The translations under genes were made by a program, and so were the position numbers. From Gluconacetobacter dulcium (lineage in GTDB: Bacteria; Pseudomonadota; Alphaproteobacteria; Acetobacterales; Acetobacteraceae): a stretch of DNA of 64,000 nucleotides. Below are positions 1,465 to 63,812 of the stretch, one piece after another. The stretch is taken from NCBI RefSeq assembly GCF_014174165.1, contig NZ_JABEQN010000012.1, positions 1-64,000 on the forward strand. The letters run 5' to 3'. The notes below the pieces were generated by a model. That model worked only from the letters and a program-made list of their open reading frames with translations, had not been told where the DNA came from and did no database searches. Each line of letters opens with the position of its first letter. Position 1 is the first letter of the stretch.

Positions 1465-2114
1465 ACAGTCTGCGCCGTCGCAGCCCCGGTCTTGCGCTCA
1501 TTTTGCTCGATCTGACGGTAAATTTCGCCGCTCCCGTGCTGATCTACGACCGGATGCAAGCCGGCTGGGGCGACGTGCAGGCACTCCTGGCCTCGTCCAT
1601 GCCGCCGTTGCTGTGGAGCGTCGGCGGATTCGTGATCAGACGACGGATTGATGCGCTTTCCCTCATTGCCCTGGCCGGCATCGCACTCTCACTGCTCGCC
1701 TTCATCGGCAGCGGATCGGCACGACTGCTGGAGTTGCGCGAACAGGCGGTGACATTTCTGATCGGCCTGGCCTTCCTCTTCTCGGCTGCGATCGGCAAGC
1801 CACTGATCGCCCCGCTGGCACGGGCCACAATGGCACGCCAATCCTCCCAGGCCCTCGCCGATTTCGACACGCACCGAAACGATACCCGCGTCCGGTGCAC
1901 CATCATGGTCATGACACTGGTGTGGGGTTTGGGTCTCCTGGCAAACGTCGTCGTCTCGGTCGCGCTCATCTACAGCCTGCCGATCAGCACATATCTCGTG
2001 GTCGGCCCGATCCTCGGCTACCCCACAATGGGGGGCCTCGCGCTATGGACGCTTCTGTACCGGCGCCATCGGATACGGCATGGCACCATGGGCCAAGCTC
2101 CGACCACGACATAA
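1461..2114 (+). CDS. VC0807-like multipass membrane protein
   Basis: A 217-residue hydrophobic protein with about five or six membrane segments (roughly 10-27, 38-57, 66-84, 95-115, 148-170, 178-200). Its arrangement resembles the VC0807 family of small integral membrane proteins: an early L.L.L..NF..P...Y, then ALLLSS.PP.LWS and a polar RRRIDALS loop. The family has no assigned biochemical role. Its ATG overlaps the stop of the carotenoid oxygenase gene by 4 bases, so the two are probably translationally coupled. A role linked to the apocarotenoid product is only an inference from this coupling. Confidence 0.6.
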
Positions 2115-2123
2115 GACACAATC

Positions 2124-2138
2124 TTAACGATTTACTAA
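2124..2138 (+). promoter_or_regulatory. CtrA-like box upstream of the transposase-derived gene
   Basis: The 15-mer TTAACGATTTACTAA is a near match to the alphaproteobacterial CtrA consensus TTAA-N7-TTAA (one mismatch, CTAA for TTAA). It lies about 50 bases before the ATG at 2188. TTAACGATT also occurs upstream of the gene at 37864. Weak evidence on its own. Confidence 0.25.
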
Positions 2139-2187
2139 TCCTTGAAAGAGACCTTACCGGCTCCCACTCCGCCCATGGAAAAGCCCG

Positions 2188-3642
2188 ATGACCAGGATCG
2201 CCCCCATACAACCGGAGTCGATCCCCATCTCCTTTCCAGGAGCAGAGAGCGACACCTCGAAGGCCGGGGGCGCCCCGCCCGGCGGCAACCGTTCCGACAA
2301 GTCTCCGCCCCCCGCTGAAGGCGATACCGTCACCCTGTCGCCCGAAGCCATTGCGGCATTGGCCTTCCTTTCAGCCGAGGCGGCAAACAGCCCCGAAGCC
2401 CTCCACAACGTTCCCCTCCCATCGGCCGCACTTCCAGCCGACTCAGACCAGATCATGGACCCGGACACACCACTTGTCCCGGCAGGCCAGATCCCGCCAG
2501 CCGCCGACGACGCCGCGCAAGCCACCATGGATCAAGCTTTCATCATGATGGCGACCGCTGAAGAAATGTCCAATCCCGCCACCCGGGAACGGGCTTATGA
2601 ACGTACCCTGATGTCGGCTCCGGATCAGGCCACCTCGCCGGCCAGCCACGAGAGCACCGCCCTTCTCCTGAAGCAGGCTCAAACAGACCCCACGATCCCC
2701 GACAGGACACAAAGCGGCGGCCGCGCGACCGAGGAAGAGATATTGACCGAACGTCTGCTCAACAGCGGACTGGATCAAGAACCGGGCACGCATCTCCCGG
2801 CCGCTCGCCATATCGGCAACGGGCCGCACATCACGCAGACCGATACCGACGCCATCGTGCCGGACCTTTCCCCCGACCTCACAGAGACGCTCGATCCCGA
2901 ATCCCTCGCCCAGGAGGTCCAACATTTCCCCGGAGTCGACGAGCGAATGGTCGCAATGTATGCGCCCGCAATGGGTAACCGCACGATCCAGGAGCCCGTG
3001 CAGGAGACCGAGGGTGAGGACCTGTCCCCGGAGCGGACCGGTCAGGTAACCGGTGCCTTTCTCGATACCGTCGCTGCCTGGCAGGGAGGCCGGCTGAACG
3101 CGCTCTATCCTGTGATCTTCTTCGAGACATTGCGAATGAGGATCCGTGACGGCGGCATTGTGTACGACAAACCGGTACATCTTGTGCTGGGCATGCGCCT
3201 CGACGGCACTATTGACGTTCTCGGCCTATGGATCGAACAGCACGAAAGCCCCGCACTGGGGCAGCACATCATGGATGCGCTAAAGAAGCGGAGCGTGGAA
3301 GATATCCTGATGGCTGTGGTCGATGAGCATAACGACTTTCCGGCTGCCATCCACACGGCCTTCCCGCAGGCACTGATCCACCCCTCGATCGACCACCTGT
3401 TGCACCATCTGCCCGATTTCGCCGCTTTGCAGGGCTATCCACCCATCGCCGGGAAAATGCCCTTCGCCACAGTTGCGGACAGCCCGTGGGGACGGATGCT
3501 CCTATCCGCCATGAGCACCATCAAGGCGATGCAGGCAATGCTCGGACGGACTGTCCAGGCACGCGGCTATTTCCCCGACGACCAGGCCGCGCTGGCTTTT
3601 CTGTTCCTCATCCTGAACCCAGCTAGAAAAGCCGCGTCGTGA
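2188..3642 (+). CDS. IS256 (mutator-type) transposase-derived protein with a disordered N-terminal extension
   Basis: A 484-residue protein in two parts. Residues 1-178 are Pro/Ser/Ala-rich, look disordered and contain TVTLSPEAIAAL (48-59). From about residue 180 onward the protein follows IS256-family transposases in order: GNGPHITQTDTD (211-221), FPGVDERMVAMYA (247-259), VTGAFLDTVAAWQ (287-299), YPVIFFETLRMRIRDGG (307-323), DVLGLWIEQ (343-351), DILMAVVDEHNDFPAAI (372-388), and TVQARGYFPDDQAAL (455-469) near the C-terminus. Catalytic positions are altered. The first Asp is E313 and the second Asp is kept (D379). The final Glu position (usually NAIESLN) reads STIKAMQ, giving K446. Roughly 80 residues of the usual central insertion are missing. 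The frame is nevertheless open and full length, with a GGAAAAG ribosome site. The likely reading is an inactive, domesticated transposase with an unknown new role, perhaps DNA binding. Confidence 0.7.
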   Translation: MTRIAPIQPESIPISFPGAESDTSKAGGAPPGGNRSDKSPPPAEGDTVTLSPEAIAALAFLSAEAANSPEALHNVPLPSAALPADSDQIMDPDTPLVPAGQIPPAADDAAQATMDQAFIMMATAEEMSNPATRERAYERTLMSAPDQATSPASHESTALLLKQAQTDPTIPDRTQSGGRATEEEILTERLLNSGLDQEPGTHLPAARHIGNGPHITQTDTDAIVPDLSPDLTETLDPESLAQEVQHFPGVDERMVAMYAPAMGNRTIQEPVQETEGEDLSPERTGQVTGAFLDTVAAWQGGRLNALYPVIFFETLRMRIRDGGIVYDKPVHLVLGMRLDGTIDVLGLWIEQHESPALGQHIMDALKKRSVEDILMAVVDEHNDFPAAIHTAFPQALIHPSIDHLLHHLPDFAALQGYPPIAGKMPFATVADSPWGRMLLSAMSTIKAMQAMLGRTVQARGYFPDDQAALAFLFLILNPARKAAS

Positions 3643-3663
3643 GAAACCTTGAACCCCAGGTCG

Positions 3664-3801
3664 TTACATGCGCACCAGGGCAAGACCATAAAACACGGCC
3701 GCAAGGCCGAGTAGCGTAAAAGCGACACCAAGAACCCGGCCACGATGGCGGCGCACGCATTCCCGGGACTGGTCGGGGGTCATGGCAAACGGTTGGTCCA
3801 T
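3664..3801 (-). CDS. Small single-span protein, CoxF-like
   Basis: A 45-residue protein, MDQPFAMTPDQSRECVRRHR followed by a hydrophobic helix (about 22-41). The layout MTP(D/E)Q + basic stretch + one membrane span resembles the small CoxF-type protein found in alphaproteobacterial cytochrome c oxidase clusters, often next to ctaB. It sits 11 bases after the ctaB stop on the same strand, which supports that reading. An internal ATG at 3783 is an alternative start. The function is not established; it was probably once a cytochrome oxidase assembly accessory. Confidence 0.55.
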   Translation of the reverse strand: MDQPFAMTPDQSRECVRRHRGRVLGVAFTLLGLAAVFYGLALVRM

Positions 3802-3812
3802 CACCGGCCTCC

Positions 3813-4757
3813 TCAGCCCATGATCAGAAAATGATCGGCCAACAGGCCGCAGAACAGCAGGAACAGATAGAGCAGCGAGAAGCGGAATGCCCGCCGCGCC
3901 GCGCCGTCACCGGTCAGACTTACGCCGGCCGCATCCTGCCGGTCACGCAGCACACCCACCGCACATCCCACGAATCCGGCATTCAGCAGCACCGCGGTGA
4001 CGGAATACAGCCATCCCGCCTGATGCAGCACCGACGGCACCAGCGACACCGCCGAGAGGATCAGCGTATAGATCAGGATCTGCCAGCGCGTATGCCGGGC
4101 TCCGCGCACCACCGGCAGCATCGGAATGCCCGCGCGGCCGTAATCCTTGCACGCATAAAGCGACAACGACCAGAAATGCGGCGGTGTCCACAGGAACACG
4201 ATCGCGAACATCACAACCGGCATCACATCCAGCGATCCGGTCGCCGCCGCCCAGCCGATCATGGGCGGAAACGCGCCAGCCGCCCCGCCGATCACGATGT
4301 TCTGCGGCGTCGAGCGCTTCAGCCACATCGTGTAGATCACGGCATAGAAGAAGATCGAAAACGCCAGGATAAACGCGGCCAGCGCATTCGTCGCCAGCCA
4401 CATCAGCAGCACCGACGCCGTCGACAGACCGATGCCGAACCCCAGCGCCTGATCCTGATGAATGCGCCCGTCAGGAATGGGACGCCGCGCGGTACGGGTC
4501 ATGATCGCGTCGATATCGCGGTCATACCACATATTGATCGCACCTGCCGCACCCGACGCCATGCAGATGCACAGGATGGCAACGCACGCGATCACCGGGT
4601 TCAAATGGCCCGGCGCCATGGCCATGCCGGCCGCACCGGTAAACACCACCAGCGAGATCACGCGCGGCTTGAGCAGCGCGAACCAGTCGCGGGCCTCGGT
4701 CCCGACCAGCGCCGCGTCGAAACGCGGCGTCTCGGAGGCAGATGCGCTGGCGCTCAT
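3813..4757 (-). CDS. ctaB: Protohaem IX farnesyltransferase (haem O synthase)
   Basis: A 314-residue UbiA-superfamily prenyltransferase that adds a farnesyl group to protohaem IX to make haem O, needed by haem-copper oxidases. The first polyprenyl/Mg-binding motif is visible as NMWYDRDIDAIMTRT (about 104-118), followed by RPIP and about nine membrane segments. The second aspartate-containing loop lies in the YGRAGIPMLPVVRG region. The start overlaps the stop of the ctaD-like gene (ATGA), indicating coupling. In acetic acid bacteria haem O or haem B is used by the bo3 ubiquinol oxidase, so this gene may stay under selection even though the adjoining oxidase subunit is degenerate. Confidence 0.93.
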   Translation of the reverse strand: MSASASASETPRFDAALVGTEARDWFALLKPRVISLVVFTGAAGMAMAPGHLNPVIACVAILCICMASGAAGAINMWYDRDIDAIMTRTARRPIPDGRIHQDQALGFGIGLSTASVLLMWLATNALAAFILAFSIFFYAVIYTMWLKRSTPQNIVIGGAAGAFPPMIGWAAATGSLDVMPVVMFAIVFLWTPPHFWSLSLYACKDYGRAGIPMLPVVRGARHTRWQILIYTLILSAVSLVPSVLHQAGWLYSVTAVLLNAGFVGCAVGVLRDRQDAAGVSLTGDGAARRAFRFSLLYLFLLFCGLLADHFLIMG

Positions 4758-16724: not shown

Positions 16725-19700
16725 CTATACTAGAGCATCCATCGCATTGAGTTGCGCAATGGCATCTTCAGCAATGCGTGTCCGTTCCACAAGTATCTCC
16801 CTTATTTTAATTAATTCTTCATCACGGTCGGCAATATCCGACAGGAGTGCTTCGGAAACAGCCGTACGTTCAGCCAATTCGCGACGTACATTTTCCAAAT
16901 GCTTGTCGCGTACAGATATAGCTTCCTGTAGTGCAGCTTTCATGGTGACCAACTCCGTCGTTCTAGCGAGAAGCTCGTTCCTGAGAGACAGCGCCTCCTG
17001 CCCGTTACCTGCAGGAGCCGTCGCATCACCGGGTCCCTGAAGGGACTCAGCGCGAATACTGTCAATTTCAAAGCGAACGAGATCCCGAACAAATCGTATC
17101 TGCGCCGCCTTGATCAGAGCCAGAGCCTCATTCCTTGCGGGAAGGAAAGGCGCTACGGCAAAGGTGATACGATGGGAGAATACAGCCTGCTTGCCATGCT
17201 TGTAATGAGCCATCAGGAAATAGGCAAAATACTCGATTCCATCTAGAAAGTCGAAATCGAATGGTTGCAGGTATTCCTCTACGGTCCTGCGGAACAGAAG
17301 TTCACCAGGAAGGATATCCGTCGCTTCCAGGAACAGGTACATATTTACCGGACCAAATCTGTTGAGCGTACGACGACCGTCCCGTTCCGCACTACTCCTG
17401 CCAGAATAGGCAATGACTGCATCAAGATTATTCTCAAGCTGACGTTTTAACGTCGTGACGTGATCGCGGTACCATATTTCGGTCGATCCGGTAAACATGA
17501 GGAAATCATGCTCAAACTCGCGACAGATGTCGTCAATCACGTTTCCCTGCGTGAGAATGGACGTACCCTGCTTGTTGATCATCTTGCGCGGCACTATGTC
17601 TATCTGAACGCCAGCCGCTTTTTTCTCACAATAGTATCGAATAAGGTGCTGGATACTTACGTCACAAGCGACAACCAGATGGATGTTCTGATAATCCTGC
17701 CGACGGACGTTCTCGATGATCCGCTCGAGCCTGACCTTCTGCCAGATATCGAAAAATCCTCCTTCGATCACATAGACAGCCAGAACCTTTTCGGATTCCG
17801 AGCGTGCATGCAGGTACTGTGAGACCAGCGCCTTACGCTCATCATGCTTGGCAAAGATCGCCTGCAGGCTGCCTTCAAGCGTAAATTTGGCGCGGAAAAT
17901 AGCCTGTGCACGCTTGACGAGATCGATGGCCTCTTCCCGATGCGTCTGGATCCAATCAAACTTCTCCATGATCTGGCTGAAGGTACGGGTCGGATTGTTG
18001 ACGTCATAATCGATAAAGAGTGCGGCGTCCTTGAAATGTTCGAGTACGAAGGGGTTGTCATCTGAAATGATCACCCCTCCCCCAACGCAAGCCTCATAGA
18101 GACGCGTGGTCGCCATTCCGGAGCGCCGATGATCGTTCGACGAAAGAACCAGCACCACACCGCACTTGTTGATCTCTTCAATAATTGAATGACCATCAAA
18201 CGGAATCATCCCGCAATAGGACGTAAATCCCTCCCATGCATGGATGCCGCCCCAGGACGCGATACGTTCCGGGCCGAAAAATTTTATTTTCCCGGAGCGG
18301 TCAAGTAGCTTCAGCAGCCCTTCATGACGAGCGCCTGTGCCGTAAACAACCTTCTCCCAATTCATCCCACAGTAGAATAAAATCGGTTTGCGTAAGGAGG
18401 GTTCCATCATTGCAGAGGCACTGAATGAAGGAAAAAGTTCACTCATTCCATCAAGCGGCCGTGGCGTATCCCGCGTGATGCTGCGAAGATGATTCCTGAT
18501 CCGTGTCGATCCGGTTGTCAGGTAGTCATCATAAGAGATGTAGCTATCCACGGCACGTGGGTACAGCGGGGTCCGCAAGGGAATTTCAGGCGGGTTCCAC
18601 AGAGAAAAATAATAGAAGGTATCAAGTGTCTTGATGGTGTCATAATGGAGTGCAATCGCAAACGGGATTTCTTCGATTACAATGACATTACCAGTCAGTT
18701 GATATTCACGGTTCAACAGCCTGCCGTCACATGAGACGGGTACCGCCTGCACACCGATTTCCCGTGCTGCCTTGCATATCCGGACGATCAGTTCATTCTC
18801 AGCACTCAGACTACCGGGCCATGGCGATACTAGCGCAAAGCACCGCTCCTGATAGGGGGGCATGATCCGTTCATAGCGCTGTACGTTACCGATACCGCCA
18901 ACATAATCGACATTGGCAAACTGCCGCCTGTCATCAACGGTAACGTTTTCGATGAACGACTTGAGCGGGCCGACACTCAACTCGCCAGGAATATCAAGCG
19001 GCAGTTCTTTCGTAGCCTTGGCATAATCTTCGACAAACTTCAGGATACCAGTCTTGATACGAGAAAGCTCGTCAAGGCGCGCCTTATCATTCCCGTTGTC
19101 TTCATCGCGGTAGACAGGCTCGAATTCATTGCCCGCCCGGCGCAGCTTCAGGATGCTCGGATGCAGCGCAGAGAACATCATCTCCAAAAGCGTAACGCCA
19201 AGATGTGTGTTGAGCACACTCTCCTGGGGGCGGCCCTGATCGAGTGCGTAACTCGCTAGCTGGCAATCAAATGTGTCGTATTCATGCGTTGCGTAATAGA
19301 GAGGGAGCGGATCAAACGTTTTATTTCCCAGCCGACAGATCGCACGCATATTTTTATACAGCGTGCCTTTCCACCCAAGATCGACAATTGCCAATGGTTC
19401 GGAAAAGAGACCCTGCCGATCAAAATATGCAAGAAGGTCAGCACGTTCCCGAGCACCCGCCGCCAGCAAGGTGTCCTCGTAATCTTCAAAGAATTCACGC
19501 ACTTTCTCAAGCTGTTCGGCTGTTTTGACCGCAGCATCCTGTTCAGGGAAACGCTCCCTGAAGGCAAGGGCCAATTCGGGCTCGTCAAGGGCAAGCTGAT
19601 GGAGGAAATCCTTAAAAGTCCAAGGAATATCGTAACGATCAAGGAGATGCTCACTAGCTATGAGATCGAGGAATGATTTATCGACACTCTTCAGCGCAGC

Positions 19701-20681
19701 AAGGAGAAAGCAACGCCTTGATGCATAAACGTAGCTTGTGCTGAAATCCGGATAAAGCGCGTCGAACGCTTCCTTGAAGATGTATCCATCCCTGGCCAGG
19801 AACGCGACATGGGAAATCTTATTCTCGTCGCACTGCTCACGGATCCATTGACAGAAGCCAGATGCGATTGGCCCCCCATATACGTATCCGAAGCGTTCCC
19901 AGTAATCTGGCTCCGGATTTTTCATCCGGTAATGTGCAACCAGCCCCTGGAAGAGAGAATTAACCGCCGAACCCGCAAACGGAGCTTGGGCAAGGGTCTG
20001 GAACAGGGTCTGTTCCGCTACGCCACCTAGGCGTTCAAGCGCGGGGACATAAAGATAGGCCTGCAGACCTGCGGCCTGCGGCATCACGAAATCTGAATGG
20101 TTATTATCGCCGATATGCAGGATTTTGTTTGCGGGCACCTGGGCATAATCGATAAGATCACGGAAAAGCAGACCGGTCGCTTTAGGGTGTAGGGTTACAG
20201 ATGAGAGAAAAAGGCGCTCATAATTATCATATCCTGCATTTGACAGTATTGTTTTGATGACTGTTTCTGGCAAATACATATCGGAGGCTAGGACGATACG
20301 CTTTCCCTTCGAGAGAGCATAAGAATAGATATTGTACATCCAGTCATCACGATAGCAGGAAGCAATTTCCTGATCGATTTCGATCTGCTTGTACTTACGA
20401 AGGGCGGCTGGAAGCTGCTGGTAAATTTCGTCTAGCGTTACTTCATCACGCCCAGCAACCCGGGCCAGGCTACGCGCCCGCATTTCGGCGGTCTGCCGCT
20501 CTTCCCTGAATTTTGGAGCGCCACAGCTTTCTTCAATATGGGCGAACAGATCAACAGGATATTGGTATATACGCCAGACAAGGGTTTCAAATACATCAAA
20601 GGATACTACTTCGCTACGATCAATAAGATCAATTAAAGTACTCCAGTCTGTATCGTTTTTTTTTGTCATGCTCTTTTTCAT
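16725..20681 (-). CDS. Multidomain HAD-like / glycosyltransferase protein
   Basis: About 1318 residues. The N-terminal part (to about 240) is HAD-like: motif I SFDVFETLV (nucleophile Asp, but Phe at +2), motif II VLASDMYLP, motif III around HPKATGLLF, and motif IV HIGDNNHSDFVMPQA. It resembles COG5610-type predicted hydrolases. A middle block (about 250-620) carries HVAFLARDGYIFKEAF. The next block (about 630-970) is a CgeB/GT4-like glycosyltransferase fold with ILFYCGMNWEK, KIKFFGPERI, VLSSNDHRRSGMATTRLYEA and GGGVIISDDNPFV. It is followed by a GT2-like A-fold (VIEGGFFDIWQKVRLERIIENV...LMFTGSTEIWYRDHV) and a C-terminal coiled coil. The ATG at 20681 follows GGAGAGGT. The gene is AT-richer than the chromosome around it. 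It probably acts in surface glycan assembly; donor and acceptor are unknown. Confidence 0.65.
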   Translation of the reverse strand: MKKSMTKKNDTDWSTLIDLIDRSEVVSFDVFETLVWRIYQYPVDLFAHIEESCGAPKFREERQTAEMRARSLARVAGRDEVTLDEIYQQLPAALRKYKQIEIDQEIASCYRDDWMYNIYSYALSKGKRIVLASDMYLPETVIKTILSNAGYDNYERLFLSSVTLHPKATGLLFRDLIDYAQVPANKILHIGDNNHSDFVMPQAAGLQAYLYVPALERLGGVAEQTLFQTLAQAPFAGSAVNSLFQGLVAHYRMKNPEPDYWERFGYVYGGPIASGFCQWIREQCDENKISHVAFLARDGYIFKEAFDALYPDFSTSYVYASRRCFLLAALKSVDKSFLDLIASEHLLDRYDIPWTFKDFLHQLALDEPELALAFRERFPEQDAAVKTAEQLEKVREFFEDYEDTLLAAGARERADLLAYFDRQGLFSEPLAIVDLGWKGTLYKNMRAICRLGNKTFDPLPLYYATHEYDTFDCQLASYALDQGRPQESVLNTHLGVTLLEMMFSALHPSILKLRRAGNEFEPVYRDEDNGNDKARLDELSRIKTGILKFVEDYAKATKELPLDIPGELSVGPLKSFIENVTVDDRRQFANVDYVGGIGNVQRYERIMPPYQERCFALVSPWPGSLSAENELIVRICKAAREIGVQAVPVSCDGRLLNREYQLTGNVIVIEEIPFAIALHYDTIKTLDTFYYFSLWNPPEIPLRTPLYPRAVDSYISYDDYLTTGSTRIRNHLRSITRDTPRPLDGMSELFPSFSASAMMEPSLRKPILFYCGMNWEKVVYGTGARHEGLLKLLDRSGKIKFFGPERIASWGGIHAWEGFTSYCGMIPFDGHSIIEEINKCGVVLVLSSNDHRRSGMATTRLYEACVGGGVIISDDNPFVLEHFKDAALFIDYDVNNPTRTFSQIMEKFDWIQTHREEAIDLVKRAQAIFRAKFTLEGSLQAIFAKHDERKALVSQYLHARSESEKVLAVYVIEGGFFDIWQKVRLERIIENVRRQDYQNIHLVVACDVSIQHLIRYYCEKKAAGVQIDIVPRKMINKQGTSILTQGNVIDDICREFEHDFLMFTGSTEIWYRDHVTTLKRQLENNLDAVIAYSGRSSAERDGRRTLNRFGPVNMYLFLEATDILPGELLFRRTVEEYLQPFDFDFLDGIEYFAYFLMAHYKHGKQAVFSHRITFAVAPFLPARNEALALIKAAQIRFVRDLVRFEIDSIRAESLQGPGDATAPAGNGQEALSLRNELLARTTELVTMKAALQEAISVRDKHLENVRRELAERTAVSEALLSDIADRDEELIKIREILVERTRIAEDAIAQLNAMDALV

Positions 20682-20880
20682 ACCTCTCCATGAAGTTTTT
20701 ATAAAATTGACCAACCGATTCTGATTGCATACTCGTCAGGCGGCCCATGCATTCGTTCAGACAAGGTTAAATTTCTCCGAAATGAGGTCGATACCGCAGG
20801 CTGGGAAATAACCCCAACATCAATTTGGGCGGGAATATACATACACGTCATTAATTATGCGTTCAACCAGACCATATCCT

Positions 20881-20974
20881 GTTTGAATGCGTGCATTCAA
20901 GTAGGTGAAGATGCTCGTAAAAGCGATAAACTAGAGCATTTCAACCGAACCGGTTTTCGATGGAAATGCTCTAG
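20881..20974 (+). repeat. Bipartite palindromic intergenic element, copy 2
   Basis: Starts GTTTGAATGCGTGCATTCAA (itself palindromic), continues AAGATGCTCGTAAAAGCGAT, and ends in the hairpin TAGAGCATTTC...GAAATGCTCTA. It is the cleanest copy of the family also seen at 9657-9870 and 59065-59160. It lies in the 400-base gap between the giant glycosyltransferase gene and the IS5-type element, in which nothing else was recognised. Confidence 0.7.
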
Positions 20975-21119
20975 TTAAATCTTGATGTGCGCATCATACG
21001 CTATAAGGATTGTACGTATCATATCAAATCGGTGCAGAGTTCCAAAGCGATATAAAATGGCGACTATGGGGCGGTCAGCGACCTGATCTGCTCCCGACAA
21101 ACTGGGTCGTTTTTGGTTA

Positions 21120-21975
21120 GAGCCTAAATCAGAAAGCGGTTTGATTGATTTTTCGTAGAACTCTGCGGATATGAGCGATCATCAGCCACGCGTGGGATGA
21201 GGAGATTGTTGCCTCAAAATCCTTCGTGAGGCGGCAGCGTCCGAGCCATGCAAAGCTACGCTCCACGATCCAGCGTTGCGGCAGGACAACGAAGCCTTCG
21301 GCCCGATCGCTACGCTTGACGATCTCGATCGTCCATCGGCCGAGTTCAGCCAGCGCAGCACGCAACTTCTCACCGGAATATCCCCCGTCACCGATCAGAT
21401 GGCGAAGCCAGGGGAACAAGGAGCGTATCCTGGCCGCTCCCAGCGGCGCACCGTCACGATCCTGAACGTCGGCGGGATGCACGACAGCCGCCACGACATG
21501 ACCCAGCGTGTCGGTCGCGATATGCCGCTTGTGTCCCTTGATCTTCTTGCCCGCGTCATAACCGCGTGAGCCGCCATTTTCAGAGGTTTTAACTGACTGG
21601 CTGTCGATAATGCCCACCGAAGGTGTCGCGTCTCGTCCCTCCTGCTCACGCGACAGGATCACGAGAATATGGTTCATGGCCTCCCATCGTCCCTCGCGGA
21701 TCCAGCGATAGAAATAGCCCTGTACGGTCCTGAAGGCGGGAAAGTTGACGTGGCAATTGCCGCCACTGGCAGCCCGTGGTGACGATATAGAGGATCGCCT
21801 CCATGACCCGGCGCAAATCCGTGCGTAGCGGTCTTCCCAGTCGCTTCCTCTCGGGCATCCGCGGCACAATAAGCGCCCACTCCGCATCGCGCAGGTCACT
21901 TGCATACTCAAGGTCGTCCCGGCGATACTGTGCGCGGGTGATTTCAGTCTAGGCCATCCTGATCTCATCAGGCTC
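21120..21975 (-). mobile_element. IS5-family (IS427/IS1031-like) element, inactivated
   Basis: An ~856-base element containing a broken transposase. Its ends carry short imperfect inverted repeats starting GAGCCT (GAGCCTAAATCAGAAAG on the left; GAGCCTGATGAGATCAG on the right, read inwards). No target duplication could be recognised, which suggests rearrangement after insertion. Confidence 0.7.
21129..21957 (-). pseudogene. IS5-family transposase, disrupted
   Basis: Reading from the ATG at 21957 gives MA, a TAG, then TEITRAQYRRDDLEYASDLR, so the usual Trp codon 3 is a stop. The frame runs on through RMPERKRLGRPLRTDLRRVM and TTGCQWRQLPR. It then needs a frameshift near 21745 to continue as FPAFRTVQGYFYRWIREG, SVGIIDSQSVKTSENGGSRG (first Asp), IGDGGYSGEKLR (second Asp) and RWIVERSFAWLGRCR (Glu). 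All three catalytic residues remain in the second frame. IS427-group elements sometimes use two overlapping frames, but the early stop argues for inactivation. Confidence 0.8.
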
Positions 21976-22108
21976 TCGCAAAACCCATGAATCATAAGTC
22001 ACTGAAATCACTCAACTCGTTTCCGGTGAGACACTTACCAAAAAAATTGCCTCCCTTTATAAAAAAGGAGCATTAATTTACTCTCGGGACCCTACAATCA
22101 AACACAAT

Positions 22109-23044
22109 CTACCTTCTTACGGAAGAAAAATTCTCTGAGTACCAAGAATATGTTTCAAAAAGTGCACGATCCAATGAATACTCCTGAACGAACCCGGCGT
22201 TCTTCAACCTCTCGACAGAATATTCCCGAAGCATCTGTCCATTTGGCATGCTCGTATCCCAGTTTATTTTACCTTTGTATCCAGAGATACGTGCAAGAAT
22301 GTCTACGACATCCCTGATGCGAACATATTGACCCGTGGCCAAGTTCACCGATCCACTGACATGGTCTGCAATTAGAAGCATCGCCGATGCAGCATCTCTC
22401 GAATAAAGAAAGTCACGCTGAGGCGAACCATCGCCCCATATCGTTACCTCAGTGCCATCACTGACCGCACGATGGAATTTCGAAATGAGAGACGGCAGAA
22501 CATGGCCAAATTTTTCGTCGAACTTGTCATACGGTCCGAATAGATTGGTCGATATGCAGTAAGCATAGTCGAGACCATATTGCTCTTTGAAAGATTCAAG
22601 TTGCGCCAACATCGCACGTTTGGCATGCCCATAAGGAGCTTCGGATGAGTGCGGCGGCCCGAGCCAGATATCGTCTTCTGAAATGGGTAATGTGCATAAA
22701 TCCGAATAGACAGCGGCCGTACCCATGGCAACGATTTTTCTTACGCCAACGAAATGTGCGGCTTCGATAACATTCGTATTGATACGTATATTATCTACAT
22801 ATGCTGCGGCTCGATTTTTCATGTTGCCCATTATACCCGACACACGAGCGGCAAGATGGAAAACGACTTTAGGCTTTACTTCCGAAAATATTTTATTGGT
22901 TGTGGCTTGATCTCGCAAATCACCATCAGATGACGTCAATGCTACAACATGATTATAATCTCTTGAATTTAATTCTCTTACCAAAGCACGACCGATAACT
23001 CCGCCGGCCCCACTAATCAATATCGTTTCATTTTTATCGAGCAT
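22109..23044 (-). CDS. GDP-L-fucose synthase-like NAD-dependent epimerase/reductase
   Basis: A 311-residue extended SDR. The Rossmann glycine motif is SGAGGVIGRALV (11-22), and the catalytic YxxxK is Y138/K142 (YGHAK). The segments STNLFGPYDKFDEKFGHVLPSLI and FLYSRDAASAMLL align well with GDP-L-fucose synthase (Fcl/WcaG), which turns GDP-4-keto-6-deoxymannose into GDP-L-fucose. The epimerase His is kept (GHVLP). However, the family GSSCIYP loop reads GTAAVYS (108-114), so the catalytic Ser is Thr and the acid/base Cys is Ala. Together with gmd at 27323 it suggests a GDP-deoxyhexose pathway, perhaps with an altered product. The ATG at 23044 is preferred over a GTG four codons upstream. Confidence 0.75.
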   Translation of the reverse strand: MLDKNETILISGAGGVIGRALVRELNSRDYNHVVALTSSDGDLRDQATTNKIFSEVKPKVVFHLAARVSGIMGNMKNRAAAYVDNIRINTNVIEAAHFVGVRKIVAMGTAAVYSDLCTLPISEDDIWLGPPHSSEAPYGHAKRAMLAQLESFKEQYGLDYAYCISTNLFGPYDKFDEKFGHVLPSLISKFHRAVSDGTEVTIWGDGSPQRDFLYSRDAASAMLLIADHVSGSVNLATGQYVRIRDVVDILARISGYKGKINWDTSMPNGQMLREYSVERLKNAGFVQEYSLDRALFETYSWYSENFSSVRR

Positions 23045-23146
23045 TCTATTTCCCACGCTCCGCCACGACTTACAATGAGTGTCTTTAGCTTGATATTTTT
23101 AGCCATTTTTTACGATAAATCAATGCTCATATTTCCCATCGACCAG

Positions 23147-23351
23147 AGGTGACCCCATTCGCTCCTACAGATTTGCGGGTTGAATAAGCTATTGCCCGGT
23201 GTTGCTATGCCGCCAATTTCTCGTTGTCGCTGACCGACACCGTTGCCGGGGCTAACCCCGGCAACGGTGTCGGAGCAAACCCATGATACGCCTCATCGAG
23301 CATACGTCCAGCGAGAGCCGAGTGCGGGCGCGGTGAATTATAATGACCAAT
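23147..23351 (-). mobile_element. IS3-family remnant: OrfB C-terminus plus terminal repeat
   Basis: On the minus strand, 23351 down to 23205 encodes NLIGHYNSPRPHSALAGRML and a further tail ending EKLAA-stop, the C-terminal signature of IS3-type integrases (YN..RPHSALG). It is followed at 23183-23147 by an element end reading AACCCGCAAATCTG...GGGGTCACC. The same end occurs, with changes, at 28472 and 54908. The 5' part of the element is missing. Confidence 0.65.
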
Positions 23352-23445
23352 AAGATTGGGTTAGAGTTCTTGCACAAGACTCAGTGCTACGATAAATGAT
23401 AGACCCTTGAAGAAAATTATTATTTTAACGTTGAGGCCCAGCAGA

Positions 23446-26418
23446 ATGTCTTCTGAAGATCAACATAATTCTCGCACTTTGGCAATTGTTCTCACTTGGG
23501 TAGATATTAAGAACGCCGAATATGAAGTCGTCCAGAGAATTCGGCGCGCCGCACGCAATATCGGCGTCGAGACGATTATCGTTGATAATGATGGATATAA
23601 GGTTTGGTCGAGCACTGAGGGAAAGACCGGTTCCAACGTCAGGATTACTCAAGAAGATTGCGATTTCGTCATCTCGCTGCATTTTGAATCGCCCAAACTT
23701 TATGATATTTTTTCCTACGCGACCCTTTGGAACCCGCCAGATTTTTTTGTCGGGCCGGGCTACGTTCGAACGACATGCTCGCTCGCGAGCCACGATGCGG
23801 CGCTATCTTGCCATTCGACGACGGCAGACGATCATGCACGCAATATTTTTGCCGGTTTTGGGCGTCCATTAGAAGAAACATTGCCTACACTCTTCCATAG
23901 TGTTCCGGATTTTCATTTTGAGCCGTCTGTGAGCGAGACGTCGCGTCTATTCTATGTCGGCATTAATTGGGAACGGATTACTGGTGAACGTGGCCGTCAC
24001 CATGACCTTCTTGCATTGCTTGATGCGGAAGATCTGATCGATATCTATGGCCCTAAGGTCTTTCTAAATGCTGAGCCCTGGCGAGGATTTAAATGCTACA
24101 GAGACGAAATCCCCTTTGACGGGGAGAGCGTCGTCAAACGTGTTCATAGTTCCGGAATTTGTCTCGCGTTATCGTCAAAATCTCATCAGCAATCCGGCAT
24201 CATGAGCAACCGGTTGTTCGAAGGGTTGGCGGCCGGGGCCGTGATCATTGCCAATCCCAACCCTTTTATCGATCGATATTTTGCAGACTGTGTTTATATT
24301 ATTGACGATACGCAAGCGCCAAAGGCGCTTGCCGATCAGGTTAGGGATTTAGTGCTGGCGATCCGTAAGGATCCTGCGAGTGCGCGAGCGCGTGCACTCA
24401 CGGCTCAGCGCCGTTTCAGGGAAATGTTCACACTGGAACGGTGTCTCACTGACATCATTGCCCAGCATGACAAGCGTATCGCGCAACTGCACGAGCGAAA
24501 TAGCATCCCGGACCAAGAAATCACTGTTCTTGTCGAATATACGGGTCTCGAATTTTCCTTGCTGATGGGAATGATCAACCTCGTTAGTCAGCAGAAAAGA
24601 TGCCAGATTGATTTGATTATCGTTTGTGACAAGCGCCTTGAAGAGCGTTTTACACCTGACTTTCGTCGCAAGAAGCTTTATTTTTTCCGATCTGTTCGGA
24701 TCTATTCTGATAATCTTTCTTCTGCCGGCGAGCAATTCGACATCGAACCGCAGCGACGGAACAGAACCGGCCCGTTAATGTTGCGAGCGTTATCCGACAT
24801 CCAGACGCCATTCTTTTGTTTTATTCACCCGGATGATCTGTGGTTCCATGACCATGTGGTCTCGCTCGCCGAGGTCCTAGAAGCGTCCCCAGAGAGCAGT
24901 TTTGCATGCTCCGGCAAGATCGTCGAGGATATGCAGATCGACGAAATCGCGAAACGGCATCTTGAGGAACTGCGGTTCGATCGTCTCGCTGATATAGTGC
25001 ATTGTGCGCTTCCTCGTGAGATAGGTCGTTTCCTCTATCGCACCTCGTTGCTCGACAATATGTCGAAACCGCTAGTGTCTTTGCTGGACAGCTTTCATAG
25101 TCGCTATTTAAACGTCGAAGCGCTCTTGCGTGGCTCGCTGGCTCAGACCTGTCGCGCGACATACGTCCATCTCCGGTGGCAGATGGAACATATCGACCTC
25201 GTTTTTCCTGAGGTAGAACAGGCATCTTTCGTGCTGGATGCCTATCGCGGCAACGAACGCTGGATCGAACGGTCGGCCGAACTTCGGCTTGCGACTGAGG
25301 CGACGAACTCGCTGGCCTTGACGAAGATGCCCAAAGAGATTGGCTTTATCTACGATTTGTCGCACAACAGCGAAGGCCTCTCACTTCTGAAGGGTGGCTT
25401 CTCGTCGCCGGAGAACAGCGGTGTGTGGATAGACGGTCGCTATGCTCGTCTTGAGTTCCTGATGGACGAGCCTGTGGGCGGTCATGATCTCTACTTGTTG
25501 GCTAACGGGCGAGTGTCCAGAGACGGCGTTTTGCAGACTGTCTCTGTAATGATCAATGGTCGGAGTTGTGGCACTCACACGGTTGGTAGTGTACCACGAG
25601 ACATGTGGTTTCCAATCCCGGATACTGTGAATCCCGTAGCACGACGTATTTCTGTTAGTGTGACGCTTCATCATGCTGAGCAGGTAATGAACGAGACTGG
25701 CGACGTTGTTTTGGACCCGCGCCATCTCGGATTGTTTATTATAGCGGTTGGTATCGTTCCGCATGAAGATGCTCCGGAAGATCAGATTCAGCTACCAACT
25801 CAATTGGAGCGGGCGGCAACCTCGGAGGGATTTTCTGAGCATGCATTGAGGAAAGGACCAGCAGAAATAGGTGTCCTTCATGAATTATCCATAAATAGCG
25901 ATGGCCTCGTCTTCTTGAGAGGAGGCTTTTCGTTTCCAGAAAATGATTTTGTCTGGATGAACGGGCGTTATGCTCGGATGGAGTTTCTGGTGGACGAGCC
26001 CGTGGGTGGATGCGATCTCTACCTGCTGGCTTGCGGACGGGCGTCCCGAGACGGTGCGTCACAGAGCATTTCGGTAGCGGTTAACGGTCTGCGATGTGGC
26101 AATCAGATGGTCGGCGAAGCGCTACAGGATCTCCGGTTCCCAATTCCACGCTCTTTGAGCTCGAAGGCGCGGCGCATCTCTGTCAGTCTGACGCTTCATC
26201 ACGCTGAACAGGTAATGAACGAGGCTGGAGAGACGCTAGATCATCGCCATCTCGGGTTGTACGTCGCGGCAGTTGGCATTCTTCCGTGTGAAGACTTGGT
26301 GGCTATCGATGAGGCGACCGCAATGCCCGACACCGATGATGCTTTTTCGGATTCAGTTGAAACGTCACTCCATTCTCATAAATTCGTCAAGCCGGTAGTC
26401 AATCTTCTTGATGAGTGA
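23446..26418 (+). CDS. Large glycosyltransferase with two tandem C-terminal modules
   Basis: About 990 residues. Residues about 1-350 form a CgeB/GT4-like fold (ISLHFESPKLYDIFSYATLW, FYVGINWERI, IDIYGPK, ALSSKSHQQSGIMSNRLFEG, GAVIIANPNPF). Residues about 360-600 look GT2-like (ITVLVEYTGLEFSLLMGMIN, FFCFIHPDDLWFHDHV). This whole block parallels the second half of the 16725-20681 protein. The C-terminus carries two copies of a ~150-residue module (about 630-780 and 805-950), each with EIG...L..NS.GL..L.GGF, GRYAR.EFL.DEPVGG.DLYLL and RRISVS.TLHHAEQVMNE. The module looks like a beta-rich, perhaps carbohydrate-binding, domain but was not recognised. The ATG at 23446 follows TTGAGG; an in-frame TTG at 23407 is possible. 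Confidence 0.65.
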   Translation: MSSEDQHNSRTLAIVLTWVDIKNAEYEVVQRIRRAARNIGVETIIVDNDGYKVWSSTEGKTGSNVRITQEDCDFVISLHFESPKLYDIFSYATLWNPPDFFVGPGYVRTTCSLASHDAALSCHSTTADDHARNIFAGFGRPLEETLPTLFHSVPDFHFEPSVSETSRLFYVGINWERITGERGRHHDLLALLDAEDLIDIYGPKVFLNAEPWRGFKCYRDEIPFDGESVVKRVHSSGICLALSSKSHQQSGIMSNRLFEGLAAGAVIIANPNPFIDRYFADCVYIIDDTQAPKALADQVRDLVLAIRKDPASARARALTAQRRFREMFTLERCLTDIIAQHDKRIAQLHERNSIPDQEITVLVEYTGLEFSLLMGMINLVSQQKRCQIDLIIVCDKRLEERFTPDFRRKKLYFFRSVRIYSDNLSSAGEQFDIEPQRRNRTGPLMLRALSDIQTPFFCFIHPDDLWFHDHVVSLAEVLEASPESSFACSGKIVEDMQIDEIAKRHLEELRFDRLADIVHCALPREIGRFLYRTSLLDNMSKPLVSLLDSFHSRYLNVEALLRGSLAQTCRATYVHLRWQMEHIDLVFPEVEQASFVLDAYRGNERWIERSAELRLATEATNSLALTKMPKEIGFIYDLSHNSEGLSLLKGGFSSPENSGVWIDGRYARLEFLMDEPVGGHDLYLLANGRVSRDGVLQTVSVMINGRSCGTHTVGSVPRDMWFPIPDTVNPVARRISVSVTLHHAEQVMNETGDVVLDPRHLGLFIIAVGIVPHEDAPEDQIQLPTQLERAATSEGFSEHALRKGPAEIGVLHELSINSDGLVFLRGGFSFPENDFVWMNGRYARMEFLVDEPVGGCDLYLLACGRASRDGASQSISVAVNGLRCGNQMVGEALQDLRFPIPRSLSSKARRISVSLTLHHAEQVMNEAGETLDHRHLGLYVAAVGILPCEDLVAIDEATAMPDTDDAFSDSVETSLHSHKFVKPVVNLLDE

Positions 26419-26465
26419 ACACCGGAGACATCAGAGAAAGGACAATGTCCAGGTCCTGTTAGATC

Positions 26466-26924
26466 TTGATCCAATGGACTGGCACGCGCTGTCGAATGTC
26501 TGTGCCCCATGGACATTGGAAAACCACGACGTTCATCGGCGGACTGCGCCTGTCCGGAATGACCGCGCCAATGATGCTGGACGGCCCAATGACTGGTGAA
26601 TGGTTCGCCGCCGACGCCCACAAGGTACTCGCTCCAACGCTGTTGCCGGGAGACGTCGTCATTGCGGATAACCTTCCGGCACACAAGAGTGCTGAAGCGA
26701 GGGAGGCTGTAGAGGCAGTCGGTGCCTGCCTGCTGTTCCTGCCGCCTTACAGTCCCGACTTCAACCCTGTCGAGAACATCTTCGCCAAGGTGCAGGCATG
26801 GATCAGACGAGTGGCGCCCCGAACCATCGATGCACTCCAGGACGCGGCGTGCGGCGCAATCGACGATGTCTTTCATAGCCAAGCCGCCGCCTGCTTCACC
26901 GCAGCAGGGTATGAACCAGATTGA
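26466..26924 (+). pseudogene. IS630-family transposase, C-terminal part only
   Basis: The frame encodes FIGGLRLSGMTAPMMLDGPM, then VVIADNLPAHKS (second Asp), LPPYSPDFNPVENIFAKVQA (final Glu) and ends AAGYEPD. These are hallmarks of IS630/Tc1-type transposases. The N-terminal helix-turn-helix and first catalytic Asp are missing. The sequence directly upstream joins the 3' end of the large glycosyltransferase gene, so the copy is 5'-truncated. The element terminus CTAGAGCATAATCCGA (minus strand) lies at 26925-26940. Confidence 0.8.
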
Positions 26925-26940
26925 TCGGATTATGCTCTAG

Positions 26941-27322
26941 ATGCCTTCATGGAACTCTCCTCGTCCCGCTTACGGGATCTTACATGGAAAATTCCAACTC
27001 AAATTGGCCGGGTTTTCGGGGAGCACGTCAGACTGCCGAAGTTCTGATAAATTGCCTCATGGCCTGAATACGAATTCGCGTTTGTTCTCAACCGATATTG
27101 GCGACGCCAGCCGATTAATGCAGATCGGGAAGTATTATCCTCACCGCATTTAATTTTTTCGATCTCTGACTGTCTGACTTGGCGTCGTTGACGGAAAAAA
27201 TTAAAGAGCGTGACCTCGGAAGTAGGAAGGCGAACCGCCGCAAAATGTGATGCATCGACGAGATTACTGCCCGCCCCTTCCCTGTTGCAACCAGTGAAAC
27301 TACCAAGCAATACTCATAATAT
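26941..27322. other. Gene-free AT-richer spacer
   Basis: A 382-base stretch between the truncated IS630-type element and gmd. Short open frames occur on both strands but none shows a recognisable family or a ribosome site. Nothing further can be supported here. Confidence 0.4.
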
Positions 27323-28336
<1,014 letters not shown>

Positions 28337-63580: not shown

Positions 63581-63812
63581 CATCCAGTCGCCCCCCCCGC
63601 CATGCGCCGGGGGCTCGCTTGCCGCCGCCGATACGCTGCGATATGGTGCGCGCCGCATCCAGAGCCGGGACCTCCCGGCACCAACCTGCATCCGAGCAAG
63701 GTGGCGTTCCCGTTATGGGAAGATGTGGCCGATCCGGCAAAAAACGGACCGCTACCTCACTGTCATCGATCCTCGTGGTGCCTGTAGCAAGCGAGGAAAG
63801 GCCGCAACCGCG

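Follow-up and report, generated by a model that had tools for sequence, protein, structure and literature searches.

The 484-codon gene at positions 2188-3642 (+ strand) of the window, which is the 64,000-nucleotide stretch of Gluconacetobacter dulcium DNA analysed here, is a real gene and looks like a host-transposase fusion rather than a decaying insertion sequence. The comparisons below make it very probable that the fusion was born once, from the N-terminus of a host protein family and an IS256 transposase, and that it has been kept as a cellular protein. A single ATG-to-TGA frame of 484 residues joins a host-like N-terminal part (residues 1-155, 2188-2652 +, with an approximate border) to an IS256-derived part (residues 183-484, 2734-3639 +). 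A sequence-only reading had earlier proposed a full-length gene of 484 codons encoding a domesticated IS256 transposase fused to another N-terminus; the frame is found as proposed, and the domestication is supported by the locus, the tree and the constraint. The fusion, its fixed place, the loss of catalytic residues and the constraint all rest on sequence comparison, and the function is one that we infer.

The two parents and the locus

The N-terminus had been read as a disordered leader. A leader is indeed present, but residues 1-155 are more than that, as their sequence corresponds to the N-terminal half of a host family; the motif GDTVTLSPEA (2320-2349 +) lies inside this part. A profile of residues 1-180 searched against 397 Acetobacteraceae genomes returns the seven fusions together with seven free-standing proteins spread over six genomes (E 3.8e-13 to 4.3e-4). 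These free-standing relatives belong to a family of approximately 340 residues (L105-L111), to which the profile of the family itself adds an eighth member, L126. In the reverse direction, the family profile recovers the fusion N-termini in 5 of 7 genomes (E 5.6e-6 to 3.7e-11) and misses those of G000 and G205, and a tblastn search of 9 kb of the window with a single sequence of the host family yields E 3e-5. The match to the host family stops near residue 155, transposases are clearly matched from about residue 183, and no remnant of the C-terminal half of the family is found at the locus in the four carriers examined of the seven. At E 1, Pfam matches none of the four family members scanned, and NCBIfam yields no more than weak matches, to two of these four. 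Within the order, 10 of 395 genomes are matched by the family profile, all of them Acetobacteraceae; relatives also occur on plasmids of Komagataeibacter (2 records) and Azospirillum (3 records), and the three inspected are annotated as hypothetical.

The leader TVTLSPEAIAAL is present in the fusion and recurs in proteins with other tails, which by sequence looks like a reused module. It also heads an unrelated 235-aa ORF, in L122 (G202:C1 near 335213) and L123 (G203:C3 near 2129684). No relative of the leader is found in viral contigs, where a phage origin was sought, and plasmid records give no match to it. The leader was also considered as a possible export signal, but the neighbourhoods have no partner in common: one contains a C39-peptidase ABC transporter, two contain proteins with TonB-plug matches under the cut-off and one contains a Hint-domain protein. 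At L155 (G200:C16:33000-50000), a free family gene lies near another leader protein, a TonB-plug protein below the cut-off and a C39-peptidase ABC transporter, which is perhaps an export or surface cluster.

The transposase parent can be traced within the genus. In a tree of 34 rows, in which the fusions were cut at residue 180 (140 in G205), clipping the dimerization region and most of all in G200, the seven fusions form one clade (SH-aLRT 100). This clade groups (100) with five free-standing copies, four from Gluconacetobacter (L037, L039, L040 and L041) and one from another genus of Acetobacteraceae (L015). L039 and L041 carry 24-base inverted repeats with 4 mismatches per pair and 6-base flanking duplications, which are marks of past movement. 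Pfam Transposase_mut matches residues 237-409 of the fusion (E 3.7e-33), and the ISCth4 transposase is the strong sequence relative among solved structures (E 8.9e-38 with a profile, 1.6e-26 with a single sequence). The tree, the alignments and the Transposase_mut match thus bear out the IS256 derivation that had been proposed for residues ~180-484.

The fusion is carried by 7 of 14 Gluconacetobacter genomes, one copy each, and the orthologs occupy the same locus in all seven. The gene order is a carotenoid-cleaving dioxygenase gene (91-1464 +, from family matches), a VC0807-family gene (1461-2114 +, from a family match), the fusion, and a convergent ctaB-like gene (3813-4757 -, named by eye), so the expected fixed place beside the carotenoid oxygenase and VC0807-like genes is found. 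Two named relatives carry the fusion, Gluconacetobacter liquefaciens DSM 5603, whose ortholog is 68% identical, and G. takamatsuzukensis LMG 27800. At E 1e-5, 9 of the 14 genomes have a match of some kind; in G202 and G203 it comes from free-standing IS256 copies or fragments of them and not from the fusion. A close copy of the VC0807-like gene is present in the same seven genomes as the fusion, the other six copies being 74-83% identical to that of the window, and weaker matches occur in three genomes beyond the carriers. In the stretches examined around ctaB in six of the seven non-carriers, the carotenoid oxygenase, VC0807-like and fusion genes were not found; the remaining non-carrier, G208, has a fragmented assembly in which ctaB gave no match. 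The genome searches scored the best candidates per genome and drew part of the family, so absences in them are not proof.

In a tree built from the products of three neighbouring genes, covering 13 of the 14 genomes, the seven carriers form one branch with support 100/100, and a single birth at the base of this branch would be the simplest history. A single copy, a conserved locus, a single origin and fusion to part of a host protein, as looked for in a domesticated transposase, are all found here.

An upstream element, TTAACGATTTACTAAT (2124-2139 +), starts 64 bases before the ATG and is rare and palindrome-like. The 14 specified bases of TTAACGATTNNCTAAT are identical in all seven copies, 43 of the 83 window positions around it (ATG included) are invariant, and its strict pattern occurs once in the 4.4 Mb genome. 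TTAA-N7-YTAA is found at -64 and -65 in two of the eight free family genes (L111 and L126) and is absent from the other six (L105-L110) and from all five other leader proteins examined; because a similar site lies at the same distance in those two genes, the host parent may have been the source of the promoter. The element resembles the CtrA-type TTAA-N7-TTAA site. Regulation of the CtrA type is unsupported, as the genome has no second instance of the strict pattern and most family genes lack the site; a loose pattern occurs at 13 distinct places, and the 7 of the 12 non-window places that were read by eye have no motility or cell-cycle theme.

A role in defence was considered too, and there is no PADLOC match. 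Elsewhere in the window, a SAM-I/IV riboswitch lies at 63650-63754 (47.5 bits against a gathering score of 41.1). The region 16725-28318 holds ORFs of 1329 and 1003 aa together with sugar-nucleotide epimerase-like ORFs, named by eye and with a poor codon-model score, and looks like an acquired surface-polysaccharide block.

Constraint on the reading frame

The frame of the fusion had been said to be kept, and it is open without a stop in six of the seven orthologs, whereas the other frames carry 1-16 stops. Pairwise Nei-Gojobori dN/dS, pooled over five representatives, is 0.44 (bootstrap 0.38-0.50), and the other two frames give 0.83-1.42 (8 of 21 pairs). By region, the ratio is 0.44 in the leader, 0.30 (0.21-0.42) in the RNase H core, 0.35 in the C-terminal part and 0.54-0.71 in linker-like stretches. 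No antisense gene is indicated, as the reverse frames carry 1-12 stops per copy. The fusion gene evolves fast: its pairwise values (0.34-0.67) overlap only those of the VC0807 neighbour (0.19-0.59) and lie above those of the other three genes tested, namely the carotenoid oxygenase (0.10-0.24), ctaB (0-0.12) and the next gene (0.12-0.21).

An alternative that we consider unlikely is a slowly decaying chimeric pseudogene, or a gene on which constraint is weak and is being lost. Pairs with G205 reach the highest dN/dS of 0.67, the copy in G174 has a single early TAG at codon 30 and the copy in G205 has suffered large losses; the stop and the losses show that the gene is dispensable or fading in some lineages. 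However, six copies keep a stop-free frame, and in neutral simulations, although 32% of the runs stay without a stop at a distance of 0.06, this falls to 5.4%, 1.4% and 0.3% at distances of 0.2, 0.3 and 0.4. Furthermore, dN/dS is below 1 even for the near sisters G206 and G200 (Fisher p 4e-5). The orthologs are therefore neither absent nor riddled with stops, which the earlier reading had named as signs of a recent pseudogene, and constraint on the amino acids has outlasted mobility, with a stop in one of seven copies. Since selection has kept the hybrid at one fixed place, it probably does a job for the cell.

Remains of the transposase

The ISCth4 transposase has the triad D175, D241 and E348 and a CxxH motif at C262/H265, as given in PMC7780238. 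These triad residues (structure 6xg8) align with E313 (3124-3126 +), D379 (3322-3324 +) and K446 (3523-3525 +) of the fusion. In the order G000, G204, G042, G174, G200, G206 and G205, the first Asp position is E, D, D, D, D, D and T, the second is D, D, E, D, E, D and D, and the Glu position is K, K, A, K, K, K and E. The columns named in the sequence-only reading are thus correct, and E313 and K446 are changed as it stated, but D379 is the unchanged aspartate; its broader claim that the catalytic set is lost holds, as a whole D-D-E triad is present in none of the seven copies. The member lost differs between species, as one would expect of a site released from catalytic constraint. S400 (3385-3387 +) stands at the cysteine of the CxxH motif, which is serine in all seven copies, while the histidine is, in the same order, H, D, H, H, H, H and H, so that no copy retains C/DxxH. 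From these alignments, the transposase part of the hybrid can probably no longer cut DNA.

A central loss of about 80 residues had also been claimed. The loss is real, but its size is 41 residues against the intact-length IS256 copies of the genus: relative to L037 and L039, 14 and 27 residues of the insertion region are missing at 3447/3448 and 3492/3493 (+), respectively, and 26 C-terminal residues are missing as well. The loss in the insertion region is larger still in the G042 fusion.

Retention was counted at positions at least 95% invariant in the 23 relatives longer than 395 aa (from a set of 27), with the fusion rows trimmed at the alignment column of residue 156 and domain borders set by us from those given for ISCth4. 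Residues identical in all seven fusions number 0 of 4 in the dimerization region (2 of 4 in six of the seven copies), 1 of 16 in the N-terminal DNA-binding region, 5 of 21 in the HTH, 15 of 40 in the first core part, 1 of 18 in the insertion region and 4 of 27 in the second core part, with mean retention of 0.43, 0.19, 0.41, 0.66, 0.25 and 0.38, respectively. By these counts, the N-terminal DNA-binding and insertion regions are worst kept and the first core part best, with the HTH between them, and the alpha-helical insertion domain of IS256 is not intact. At 19 positions the fusions share one fixed residue that none of the 23 relatives has; P260, H360, H398, P399, S400 and H406 are among them. 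Two of the new histidines, H398 and H406, lie in the His-rich stretch HPSIDHLLHH (3379-3408) and the third at 360; a metal or partner site formed by the three is possible.

In the AlphaFold prediction with an input of 29 rows (3 fusions and 26 transposases), the block means of pLDDT are 72-92 at residues 291-410 and 431-480 and below 50 at 411-430 and 189-284, and the best Foldseek match is 6xg8 (E 1.5e-14). When the input is restricted to the three fusion rows, confidence in the core drops to 39-73, but strands and helices follow one another almost as before and 6xg8 is again first (E 5.3e-9); the high confidence of the first model borrows from the 26 transposase rows. The sought structural match to the IS256 RNase H fold is obtained in both models, as a shortened RNase H-like core (residues 291-480, 3058-3627 +), while the DNA-recognition region is not predicted as a fold. 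Residues 183-280 (2734-3027 +) are accordingly described as degenerate DNA-binding and HTH regions.

The dead transposase might still bind DNA through its HTH and control genes, and transposase-derived regulators such as TldR provide a precedent. The stretch 247-300, equivalent to the HTH, has a dN/dS of 0.38, and mean retention in the HTH slightly exceeds that in the second core part. Nevertheless, a regulator of this kind is improbable given the single position kept in the N-terminal DNA-binding region, the unstructured prediction for residues 189-284 and the proline fixed at position 260, where the relatives have A or R. The DNA- or RNA-binding role suggested by the sequence-only reading is for the same reasons not favoured.

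A brake on free IS256 transposition, in which the fusion would form dead complexes with active transposase, has some basis in the two dimerization positions kept in six copies and in the intact-length relatives present in three of the seven carriers (G174, G200 and G205). It is quite improbable, because the genome of the window has only fragments of such an element and yet retains the gene, and because the parts that would recognise the ends are degraded; IS256 ends are probably not recognised by the fusion protein.

Despite the strong Transposase_mut match, a working IS256 element is practically out of the question, as the triad, the CxxH motif and the insertion region are not intact, no terminal inverted repeats are found at 2101-3900 of the window (best match to the two L041 ends 58%), the gene sits at one fixed locus in seven genomes, and its score against the NCBIfam IS256 model (103.4 bits) is under the cut-off of 150. 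The fusion protein is not a transposase.

Proposed history and comparison with known systems

In the preferred reading, a transposase was captured and then retained by the cell: an IS256 enzyme, from a lineage that still lives in the genus, would have landed behind the N-terminal ~155 residues of a host family protein, and would have been stripped of its ends, of part of the insertion domain and of the catalytic set. The hybrid may have been retained as a protein working without catalysis, in which the host-derived N-terminus would set location or partner. It is plausible, if a little short of an even chance, that the RNase H core and not the DNA-binding part was recruited, as a new domain that replaced the C-terminal half of the host protein and acquired the 19 newly fixed positions. 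More tentatively, the protein may be non-catalytic, with the shortened RNase H fold serving as a structural or partner-binding, perhaps metal-binding, domain behind the host N-terminus. We hold the explanation as a whole, birth history and non-catalytic structural or partner function together, to be moderately probable.

The birth of genes through transposase capture has ample documentation in eukaryotes; for bacteria, judging by searches of the open-access literature, there is little. A domesticated bacterial IS256 fusion was not found in that literature, which given its scope is weak evidence; in the main text of PMC3942029, 'domesticat', 'fusion' and 'inactive' do not occur. The present case is tractable because the two parents, the branch in which the fusion arose and its locus are all identified, seven natural copies have diverged to a useful degree, and Gluconacetobacter still harbours free relatives of the parent element. 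It lends itself to asking by what route a bacterium makes a protein out of a dead transposase, and which of the enzyme's parts repay retention.

Compared with the ISCth4 TnpA (PDB 6xg8, 6xgw and 6xgx; PMC7780238), the fusion has the same RNase H-like core, with strands and helices in matching order, but has no whole triad, a broken CxxH motif, a shortened insertion region, a degraded DNA-binding region, no terminal repeats and a replaced N-terminus. With the ~340-residue Acetobacteraceae family it has the N-terminal ~155 residues in common, the C-terminal half being swapped for the transposase part. RAYT, an HUH transposase, and the nuclease-dead TldR, of the TnpB family, are likewise transposon-derived proteins retained by bacteria or their phages, but their enzyme families differ from IS256 and neither is a host-IS256 fusion. 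Eukaryotic host-transposase fusions also join host exons or domains to a retained transposase; these, according to Cosby and others, reportedly retain the DNA-binding domain as a rule, whereas the Gluconacetobacter fusion keeps the catalytic core.
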